A DNA stretch of 64,000 nucleotides from Candidatus Rifleibacteriota bacterium (GCA_024710355.1 JANJUX010000054.1:1-64000); one strand, 5' to 3'; counted from the first letter of the stretch, positions 5,257-15,367 are shown. The notes: generated by a model not told the origin, from the sequence alone. Numbers and translations are program-made.

Positions 5257-6462
5257 ATGGTAATCGGAGGTTCGATTTTGATACTGTGCAATTTTAGAAT
5301 TATTCGCCCCAGATATTTGCTTGAGCAGGAAACCACGCTGGCATGGCTGGCTGAAGCGCATGCTCGCGCGGAGTCCTGTAAAGATGCCAGTTCTGGGAAG
5401 CTACGGCCTGCAAGTATCTCTTCAGATAGCATTTCCAGACTCGTTAAGCGTTACGGGTGTTCAGGTGAGCAGATCGCCGTTCGCGGCACAGAAATATGCG
5501 ATTTCACCCACACAAACTGGGAGAAAATGGCATTGTTTCATTTCAGGAATGGCCCTTTTGGGCCTGATATGAGCCAACGATCAGCACAATTCAGTGAAAT
5601 TTCAAAGCGTATCTGTGAACAATTTTTCCCACCTGAAATCACTGCTCCTGATCACCTTGTTCATGTTACCTGCACCGGCTATATTTCCCCGAGCAGCCCC
5701 CAGGAAATAGTCTCCAAAAACCAATGGCACCAGAAAACCGTGGTAACCCATGCTTATCACATGGGATGCTATGCCGCTATGCCAGCGGTGCGCATGGCAG
5801 AAGGCTTTCTCGCCAAAGACCGCCTTGATACTGCCGGCTGCCACAGTGGCTTTCGTGCAGATATATTTCACACTGAGGTCTGCTCCTTGCATGTGCAGCT
5901 TCAAGATCACTCACCAGAGCAACTCGTCGTTCAAAGCCTTTTTGCCGATGGTTTTATCGTCTACTCGGCCGTACACCAGGAAGAAGCCGGTCTGGTCAAC
6001 GGAGCCGGGCTTGTCGTTGAGGCTCTTCAAGAAGAAATTATTCCCGGGACAGAAAAGGCAATTACCTGGGATTGCTCTGAATGGGGAATGCGCATGGGGC
6101 TTTCATCAATTGTTCCCGAAGCAATTTCGTCAAATCTCGCCAGCTACATGCAACGACTCTGCCAGCGCTGCAACGTTTCATTCGAGGAAATCTGCGCCAA
6201 AGCGATTTTCGCCGTTCACCCCGGCGGGCCCAAAATTATCGATCGGATTCAGGCGTTGCTGGGTCTGCGGGACGAGCAACTGCAGGCCAGCCGCCATATT
6301 CTTAAAACCTGTGGAAACATGTCATCGGCGACTCTGCCACACGTCTGGGAAAACATCTGCGCCGATTCATCTGTGAGCGACGGCACTCTGGTAGTCAGTC
6401 TGGCGTTCGGGCCCGGACTATGCATTTCCGGTGCAACAATGCGCAAGGTCGTTAACCCATGA
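5257..6462 (+). CDS. Type III polyketide synthase (chalcone/stilbene synthase family)
   Basis: Cys-His-Asn triad contexts: HMGCYAAMPA, IFAVHPGGPKI, CGNMSSAT; also HVTCTGYISPS. A GGAGG at ~5266-5270 suggests the true start may be TTG 5278. Confidence 0.85.
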   Translation: MVIGGSILILCNFRIIRPRYLLEQETTLAWLAEAHARAESCKDASSGKLRPASISSDSISRLVKRYGCSGEQIAVRGTEICDFTHTNWEKMALFHFRNGPFGPDMSQRSAQFSEISKRICEQFFPPEITAPDHLVHVTCTGYISPSSPQEIVSKNQWHQKTVVTHAYHMGCYAAMPAVRMAEGFLAKDRLDTAGCHSGFRADIFHTEVCSLHVQLQDHSPEQLVVQSLFADGFIVYSAVHQEEAGLVNGAGLVVEALQEEIIPGTEKAITWDCSEWGMRMGLSSIVPEAISSNLASYMQRLCQRCNVSFEEICAKAIFAVHPGGPKIIDRIQALLGLRDEQLQASRHILKTCGNMSSATLPHVWENICADSSVSDGTLVVSLAFGPGLCISGATMRKVVNP

Positions 6463-7628
6463 AGCTGTCTGTCGCCACAAATTTTGACAACAAGCTTCTT
6501 GCGGACATGGCCGGCCATAATGTCGTAGAGGTCTATGGCAAGCTGCCAAGAGACGTGGCCGGCGGCGGCAGGGCAAGTTACTCTACCGGCGCAGTCGGTA
6601 TGCCACAACTTGAAAACCACATTAAAGAAGCGCACGACAATGGCATACGCTTTAATTACCTTTTAAATGCCGTGTGCCTCGGGAACCGCGAGTGGAGTCG
6701 CAGTGGCATTAGAGCTATTCGTGAACTTCTTGATGAAATGGCGATGATTAAGGTCGATGCAATTACGGTTTCGACTCCTTATCTGGCTGAGATTATCAAA
6801 AAACATTACCCCATGTTCCAGTTAAAAATTGGCATTTTTGCCAACATCGATACACCAACCCGCGCCAGATTCTGGCAAAACCTCGGAGCGGACACGCTGG
6901 TGCTTGAATCTTTTTCGATCAACAGGCGCTTTCCCCTGCTTAAATCAATTCGTGAATCAGTTTCGTGTGAGCTGCAGTTGATAGCGAATTTTACCTGCCT
7001 GCCAAACTGCCCGATGCAGATATACCACATGACAGGAATCTCGCACGGTTCAAATACCGTTGACAAGGGGCCATTCATCGATTATTGCATTCTAAAATGC
7101 TCAGCCACAACTCTTAACGACCCGGCCCTGCTGATTAAATCGAACTGGATACGCCCGGAAGATACTGACTATTACGAGCAAATGGGTTTCAGCAGTTTCA
7201 AGCTGCTTGAAAGGAATGCGCCATCTGACCTGATGCTCAAAAGAGTTCGGGCATATTCAAACAAAACTTCGCCGGCCAACCTGCTTGAACTGATTCAGCC
7301 CTTCGGCTTTAATAAAAGCATTAAAATGCAGTTTGGCTGGATACCACGACTGATTCTGGAACGCCCGAGGCTGGTTTTGCCTCTGTACCGCCTGCTGAAA
7401 ACACGCGGCATGCTTTTTTCTTTAAAAGGAACCCCGGCAAAGATTGACTCAGCCAAAATTCCCGCGAATTTTCTCGATGAGATTTCCCGGCGCCCCTGCT
7501 CAAAGAATTTGCTCTGCCAGGATTGCAGTTACTGTGATCAAATTTCAAAAGAGGCATACAGCGTCGACCCGGCCTACTATCAGGAGTGCACACGCCTGTA
7601 CAAGAGAGTTTTTAAACTTTTATGCTGA
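6459..7628 (+). CDS. U32 peptidase-like (UbiU/UbiV/RlhA-type fold) protein with Cys clusters
   Basis: TIM-barrel-like start (MKLSVATNFDNKLLADMAGHNVVEVYGKL), ITVSTPYLAEIIKKHYP, then TCLPNC, DYCILKC and C-terminal LLCQDCSYC. ATGA overlap with the PKS. Confidence 0.6.
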   Translation: MKLSVATNFDNKLLADMAGHNVVEVYGKLPRDVAGGGRASYSTGAVGMPQLENHIKEAHDNGIRFNYLLNAVCLGNREWSRSGIRAIRELLDEMAMIKVDAITVSTPYLAEIIKKHYPMFQLKIGIFANIDTPTRARFWQNLGADTLVLESFSINRRFPLLKSIRESVSCELQLIANFTCLPNCPMQIYHMTGISHGSNTVDKGPFIDYCILKCSATTLNDPALLIKSNWIRPEDTDYYEQMGFSSFKLLERNAPSDLMLKRVRAYSNKTSPANLLELIQPFGFNKSIKMQFGWIPRLILERPRLVLPLYRLLKTRGMLFSLKGTPAKIDSAKIPANFLDEISRRPCSKNLLCQDCSYCDQISKEAYSVDPAYYQECTRLYKRVFKLLC

Positions 7629-7697
7629 ATTCCATATCTGCGGCTGCCCTTCTTTTCAGCGCCAGCAAACATAATTTGCCCGCATCGAGGTAATTAA

Positions 7698-8444
7698 ATG
7701 AGCATTTCAACTATCTTAAAAGAGATGCGTTCGATTGATATCAGAAGCACTGAAAAAGAATTCATGGACGACCCGGAATTCAAGGGTACTGATCTGACAG
7801 AAAGTTTCAAATTCATAAAAATCACAAATATGCTTGGAGGCGGCCGACTTGCGGTAATCAACTGCATTGGCAAAGCTTTGCAGGATATTCCCTTTCAGAG
7901 AGACCTCAGCGTTCTCGATATCGGCTGCGGCATTGGCGACATGGGGGGGGCCATTATCAGCTGGGGTGAGCGCCACGGCAGAAATATAAACTACACCGGC
8001 CTCGAAAAAAGCGCCTACATACTCGATGAGGCCAGAAAACAGAATAAAAACAATAATATGAGGTTTATCAGCGGCGACCTTTTCGAAAGCGATCTTCCTG
8101 AAGCTGATCTGGTTATAATCTCGATGGTTCTTCATCATCTCGATGAAGCTGACGTAATTAGCGCTATTCGAAACCTCGCCGCCAAAGCACGCATTGCTCT
8201 GATTATCAGCGAGCTTGAACGCTCGCTTCCGCCCTACCTGATCTGCCAGCTTCTCTCTATGACAATCAAAAATTCAAGCGCCATTCACGACGCACTGCTT
8301 TCGGTGCGCAAGGGCTTTAAGGCACCCGAGATGAGAAATCTGATTTCCCGGGCAGGTCACCGGGGAATTGTGCGTCGAGGCCTGGGATGGCGAATTCTCG
8401 CAGTTGTGCCTCTTTTTGAAATTTCCAGTCCACATCGCCGTTGA
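7698..8444 (+). CDS. Class I SAM-dependent methyltransferase
   Basis: Motif I LSVLDIGCGIGDMGG, acidic post-I YTGLEKSAYI, LVIISMVLHHLDE. Confidence 0.8.
   Translation: MSISTILKEMRSIDIRSTEKEFMDDPEFKGTDLTESFKFIKITNMLGGGRLAVINCIGKALQDIPFQRDLSVLDIGCGIGDMGGAIISWGERHGRNINYTGLEKSAYILDEARKQNKNNNMRFISGDLFESDLPEADLVIISMVLHHLDEADVISAIRNLAAKARIALIISELERSLPPYLICQLLSMTIKNSSAIHDALLSVRKGFKAPEMRNLISRAGHRGIVRRGLGWRILAVVPLFEISSPHRR

Positions 8445-13111: not shown

Positions 13112-15367
<2,256 letters not shown>

Follow-up and report, generated by a model that had tools for sequence, protein, structure and literature searches.

A type III polyketide synthase, U32 protein and methyltransferase cassette with a probable role in oxygen-independent alkylquinone biosynthesis

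Analysis of a 64,000-nucleotide stretch of DNA from a Candidatus Rifleibacteriota bacterium (the whole stretch is called the window here) revealed a three-gene cassette for a type III polyketide synthase (PKS), a U32-family protein and a class I SAM methyltransferase. Comparison with operons of matching gene content suggests that the U32 protein probably replaces a flavin hydroxylase, and that the cassette would yield a methylated long-chain alkylhydroquinone or quinone independently of O2. The three genes are as follows.

5257-6462, + strand: type III PKS, 401 amino acids as listed, intact open reading frame
6459-7628, + strand: U32-family protein, 389 amino acids, intact open reading frame
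7698-8444, + strand: class I SAM methyltransferase, 248 amino acids, intact open reading frame

The PKS and U32 genes overlap by the ATGA at 6459-6462, and a gap of 69 bp separates the U32 gene from the methyltransferase gene. This is the layout given in the original prediction, and its coordinates (5257-8444) were reproduced. The listed PKS start, ATG 5257, is probably wrong; the sequence GGAGG at 5266-5270 is followed by a 7-nt spacer and TTG 5278, which is probably the real start and gives a protein of 394 amino acids. The source genome comprises 5.0 Mb in 57 contigs and is 94.6% complete; among named genomes, Candidatus Riflebacteria MAGs are closest to it. The host is uncultured and apparently an anaerobe. 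Genome-wide checks of this genome were done as family searches.

The methyltransferase scores above the cut-offs of several class I methyltransferase families in Pfam, and its nearest NCBIfam family is NF004851/PRK06202 (106 bits, below the cut-off of 243), in agreement with the SAM methyltransferase predicted earlier. PRK06202-like homologues adjoin type III PKS genes in Deinococcus, Psychrobacter, Paracoccus and Novosphingobium, and a protein of this type is the usual methyltransferase partner in type III PKS operons. A plasmid search with the window methyltransferase as query revealed type III PKS, methyltransferase and FAD oxidoreductase genes together in the same four genera. Most of these oxidoreductases belong to FAD_binding_3; the Psychrobacter protein, annotated as FAD-dependent, gave no Pfam match at the threshold used.

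The FAD arrangement also occurs in the window's own family. In genome G019 a PKS with 54% identity to that of the window has an FAD monooxygenase and a methyltransferase as neighbours, and this genome gave no U32 of the PKS-linked kind. The open reading frame of the G019 PKS orthologue starts at a TTG matching TTG 5278 of the window. A PKS together with an FAD monooxygenase was further found in G038 and G040, and these three genomes were taken as confirmed FAD genomes. Two others, G031 and G036, were left out, no FAD gene being found in the stretch around the PKS examined. Their loci (L118 and L119) encode a type III PKS 64% identical to the G038 PKS, with neither a U32 nor an FAD monooxygenase in that stretch; a hydroxylase of these loci, if any, is encoded elsewhere or absent. 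Searches of the U32-cassette loci and of the window's first 25 kb gave no FAD monooxygenase homologue. The PKS tree and the methyltransferase tree each require, on well-supported branches, at least two changes between U32 and FAD monooxygenase, as expected if one hydroxylase has replaced the other. Since the two enzymes alternate in otherwise matching operons, they are likely to serve the same step. The natural swap thus lends support, at the level of sequence, to the earlier proposal that the U32 protein stands in for the flavin hydroxylase.

The cassette is present in four related genomes (G002, G005, G007 and G008), in two of which, G005 and G007, it is divided between contig ends. Identities to the window proteins in these genomes are 57-88% for the PKS, 67-93% for the U32 protein and 50-89% for the methyltransferase. 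A scan with the U32 alignment over genomes of 85,488 species gave 139 relatives, and 80 loci were kept; for the GC-rich loci and genomes (L028, L090, L095, L099, G031, G036 and G040) tblastn or HMM searches of all open reading frames were used. A neighbourhood survey of PKS and U32 pairs had been proposed with the original prediction, and it revealed such pairs in five phylum-level groups, namely Riflebacteria, Muiribacteriota, Lentisphaeria, Planctomycetota and Fibrobacterota. The gene order is U32, methyltransferase, PKS in Muiribacteriota, Lentisphaeria and Planctomycetota, and it varies among the four PKS/U32 loci of Fibrobacterota. Recurrence in four related genomes and, rearranged, in four other phylum-level groups indicates that the cassette is not a chance assembly. 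The PKS-linked U32 proteins form a single clade on the tree (support 100/98), nine of whose ten members are PKS-adjacent; for the tenth (L028), the distance from gene start to contig end is 250 bp. Their PKS partners fall into two separate PKS clades, so the U32 protein goes with two kinds of PKS. More distant U32 genes among the scanned loci had no type III PKS nearby.

Beyond the PKS-linked clade, a wider U32 family with the same cysteine signature occurs in anaerobes (loci L040-L103, e.g. L042, L046, L054, L060, L072 and L086), next to genes for LuxC/LuxE acyl reductases, acyl-CoA ligases, ketosynthases/ACPs, B12 radical-SAM proteins or another methyltransferase. This suggests an uncharacterised lipid or polyketide role of the wider family. 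Muiribacteriota genome G030 has a second U32 protein (L019/L043), which belongs to the wider family, is 37% identical to the window U32 and has no PKS beside it. Its gene lies directly 3' of a DUF4070-matching gene, which resembles the C-terminal part of a radical-SAM protein, and 5' of a sulfotransferase-like gene. In Fibrobacterota, at the Chitinivibrionales locus L035 (4809-12356), the region just 5' of the U32 gene encodes an amine-oxidase/CrtI-like FAD protein, a glycosyltransferase and a CrtO-like acyltransferase, a combination that looks like a staphyloxanthin-type carotenoid set beside the quinone cassette.

The U32 assignment made earlier was borne out by profile comparison. The window protein matches PF01136 with 36.4 bits (cut-off 22.4), the match covering only profile positions 2-66 in the N-terminal part, and homology over the full barrel rests on profile alignment and the predicted fold. 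A profile of 91 family sequences aligns with TrhP (5e-11), with RlhA (7e-8, residues 45-268) and with UbiU (7e-6, residues 23-267); UbiV gave no match to this profile (E 0.14). The AlphaFold model, made from a 47-sequence alignment, has a pLDDT of 90.7, and among PDB structures it resembles the U32 protein 5d88 most closely (E 1.9e-11). Four core cysteines (C180, C184, C210 and C214), of the kind expected for an Fe-S protein in the original prediction, were identified and are invariant across the PKS-linked U32 proteins (11 of 11 by pattern). C180 aligns with UbiU C169, a ligand of the [4Fe-4S] cluster (PMC6747719). The core spacing is CX3CX25CX3C; the canonical CX6CX15CX3/4C was found in none of the 91 family members and is present in TrhP, RlhA and two other U32 proteins of the window genome. 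UbiU and UbiV also deviate from the canonical spacing (PMC6747719). Invariance of the core cysteines and the alignment of C180 with UbiU C169, at a non-canonical spacing, make Fe-S binding by the window U32 likely. An extra C-terminal motif, CX5CX2CX2C (Cys347/353/356/359), is specific to this family and absent from TrhP, RlhA and UbiU.

The window U32 thus shares with UbiU/UbiV, TrhP and RlhA the U32 barrel and cysteines at an equivalent place, but differs from them in cysteine spacing, in the extra C-terminal motif and in acting as a single protein; those proteins are tied to ubiquinone or RNA, whereas the window U32 is tied to a type III PKS. Orthology to UbiU/UbiV was rejected, given the single U32 gene in the cassette, the unmatched UbiV and the UbiU match of only 7e-6. 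Of the comparison with UbiU/UbiV drawn in the original prediction, the homology stands and the identity does not: the protein is a U32-superfamily member with its own cysteine signature, neither UbiU nor UbiV. Characterised U32 hydroxylases serve ubiquinone synthesis and RNA modification, with prephenate as the oxygen donor (PMC11574389), and the window U32 is a putative Fe-S, O2-independent hydroxylase.

The U32 protein might alternatively belong to the pathway but catalyse another Fe-S step, such as hydroxylation or activation of the starter, reduction or decarboxylation, in which case the product would be a phenolic lipid and not a quinone. The neighbours of the wider family, which are not obvious quinone genes, the C-terminal cysteine motif missing from TrhP, RlhA and UbiU, and the additional ketosynthase at Fibrobacterota loci L034 and L035 are in favour of this explanation. 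It is nevertheless unlikely, because operons that otherwise match carry either the U32 or the FAD monooxygenase, and the characterised U32 homologues are hydroxylases (PMC11574389).

Analysis of the PKS points to the nature of the substrate on which such a hydroxylase would act. The protein matches Chal_sti_synt_C (PF02797) with 83.7 bits (cut-off 27, E=1.7e-23), and the alignment contains the complete triad Cys171, His321 and Asn354, consistent with the intact Cys/His/Asn contexts noted earlier. Trp271 falls in the column of ArsB Trp281 and ArsC Gly284. In A. vinelandii this position separates alkylresorcinol (ArsB) from alkylpyrone (ArsC) formation (PMC6274091), and Trp281 is regarded as a marker of aldol cyclisation and resorcinol formation (PMC6274091, PMC9927152) that was applied alike to polyketide-quinone PKSs (PMC9927152). 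On the basis of this Trp, an alkylresorcinol product is predicted and the window PKS is predicted to be an ArsB-like alkylresorcinol synthase.

The best solved relative by name is Azotobacter ArsC, a pyrone synthase (3vs8/3vs9, 207-213 bits), and in U32-linked PKSs from the second PKS clade the Trp281 column is occupied by Tyr or Phe; both observations would fit a PKS that makes alkylpyrones, with the methyltransferase and U32 decorating the pyrone and no quinone being formed. However, the resorcinol-directing Trp is present in the window PKS and in four U32-linked Riflebacteria relatives, and the higher-scoring ArsC structure, 3vs9 (213 bits, E=6.8e-62), is the G284W mutant (PMC6274091), which outscores wild-type ArsC as a match. 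Planctomycetota PKSs from operons of the PKS, methyltransferase and FAD type also made alkylresorcinols (PMC10896814). A pyrone product is therefore considered improbable. That the U32 protein is an RNA-modifying hydroxylase, as are the characterised single-gene U32 proteins TrhP and RlhA, its best profile matches, or an unrelated chance neighbour of the PKS is very improbable and was rejected, as PKS adjacency extends over five phylum-level groups, in rearranged order and with two distant PKS clades, and two further U32 proteins, both with the canonical motif, are encoded in the window genome.

In the pathway predicted from these genes, the type III PKS would extend a fatty-acyl starter by condensation with three malonyl units, and aldol condensation would then close the ring, giving a 5-alkylresorcinol. 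The PRK06202-like methyltransferase would then methylate the alkylresorcinol on O or C. In the third step, suggested by the replacement pattern and the U32 homology, the single U32 protein would use a cysteine-bound Fe-S cluster to add a ring hydroxyl from a source other than O2, in place of the FAD monooxygenase that oxygen-using relatives carry. The oxygen donor is probably prephenate, by analogy with known U32 hydroxylases (PMC11574389). Prephenate dehydratase was found in all 17 genomes, with a weak match in the window genome. The resulting hydroquinone/quinone pair may cycle as a membrane redox carrier or antioxidant. Against this pathway stand the non-canonical core cysteine spacing, the lack of detectable relationship to UbiV and the dependence of UbiU on its partner UbiV, as opposed to the lone U32 here, as well as the fact that the part played by the FAD enzyme of the Planctomycetota operon is itself unproven (PMC10896814).

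Terminal oxidases and quinone genes were compared among the genomes. Heme-copper oxidase (PF00115) is absent in 10 of 12 U32-cassette genomes, being present in G008 and as a fragment in G065, and it was found in all five genomes with the PKS but without the U32. These absences were counted partly in incomplete MAGs, where genes may be missing. Cytochrome bd occurs in the U32-cassette genomes G008 and G064, and neither oxidase was found in nine of the 12. Fisher tests gave p values of 0.009 against all five PKS-without-U32 genomes and 0.044 against the three confirmed FAD genomes; both are descriptive only, the genomes being related. As both oxidase types occur in G008 and bd in G064, the correlation with oxygen is imperfect. 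A KatG catalase-peroxidase is encoded at 13154-15367 of the window (1320 bits), which indicates exposure of the organism to peroxide even though searches gave no terminal oxidase.

Searches of the window genome gave neither a futalosine-pathway gene (PF02621) nor a MenD above the cut-off, and the one UbiA-family member that it encodes is a decaprenyl-phosphate phosphoribosyltransferase (272 bits, cut-off 234). An isoprenoid-quinone pathway is not detectable in this genome; the polyketide quinone could be the only lipid quinone of the organism, or the organism may need no quinone. A UbiE/MenG-like methyltransferase lies next to the cassette at Chitinivibrionales loci L035 and L038 (about 150 bits, below curated cut-offs). 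The broader proposal, that a dedicated U32 Fe-S hydroxylase acts on alkylresorcinol in at least five phylum-level groups of anaerobes and that its product is the sole lipid quinone in organisms like the present one, is tentative and, taken as a whole, rather doubtful.

SrsC, the hydroxylase of Streptomyces griseus, is a flavoprotein. The srsABC operon of this species and the PkQ operons of mycobacteria and Streptomyces resemble the cassette in combining a PKS with the resorcinol-directing Trp, a methyltransferase and a hydroxylase in one operon; the difference is a flavoprotein hydroxylase there and a U32 protein of Fe-S type here, in hosts mostly without terminal oxidases. The closest characterised PKSs, Azotobacter vinelandii ArsB and ArsC, share the triad and the ArsB-type Trp, and we know of no U32 partner for either. 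Their partner is the fatty-acid synthase ArsA (PMC6274091), in contrast to the U32 protein and methyltransferase here. The cyanobacterial hidABC operon (hierridin) and the Planctomycetota operon of methyltransferase, oxidoreductase and PKS are also alike in having three genes, for a type III PKS, a methyltransferase and one redox enzyme, but this enzyme is an FAD-dependent oxidoreductase of unproven role instead of a U32 protein, and the gene order is different. The PKS of such operons makes alkylresorcinols, and the Planctomycetota arrangement accounts for 58 of 96 type III PKS genes (PMC10896814, PMC8086630). Operons of the hidABC type match the cassette no less closely than srsABC, the template named in the original prediction. 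The cassette would work in the manner of the srs, hid and PkQ operons and is not a member of them, since the defining flavin enzyme is absent.

In the open-access literature, the combination of a type III PKS with a U32 protein was not found described, and nothing relevant was found on anaerobic type III PKS alkylquinones or on U32 hydroxylases in biosynthetic gene clusters. Our analysis indicates that a U32 clade of its own is associated with polyketide biosynthesis, beyond the ubiquinone and RNA roles of characterised U32 proteins, and matched O2-dependent counterparts of the cassette exist in nature for comparison. Its size of three genes makes the substrate range and oxygen donor of U32 proteins directly testable. 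If the proposed pathway is true, phenolic lipids and polyketide quinones can be hydroxylated without oxygen, and this would account for how they might be produced in anaerobes. PkQ benzoquinone lipids serve as alternative electron carriers under hypoxia (PMC9927152), and the U32 cassette would broaden the view of quinones as carriers where oxygen is scarce.
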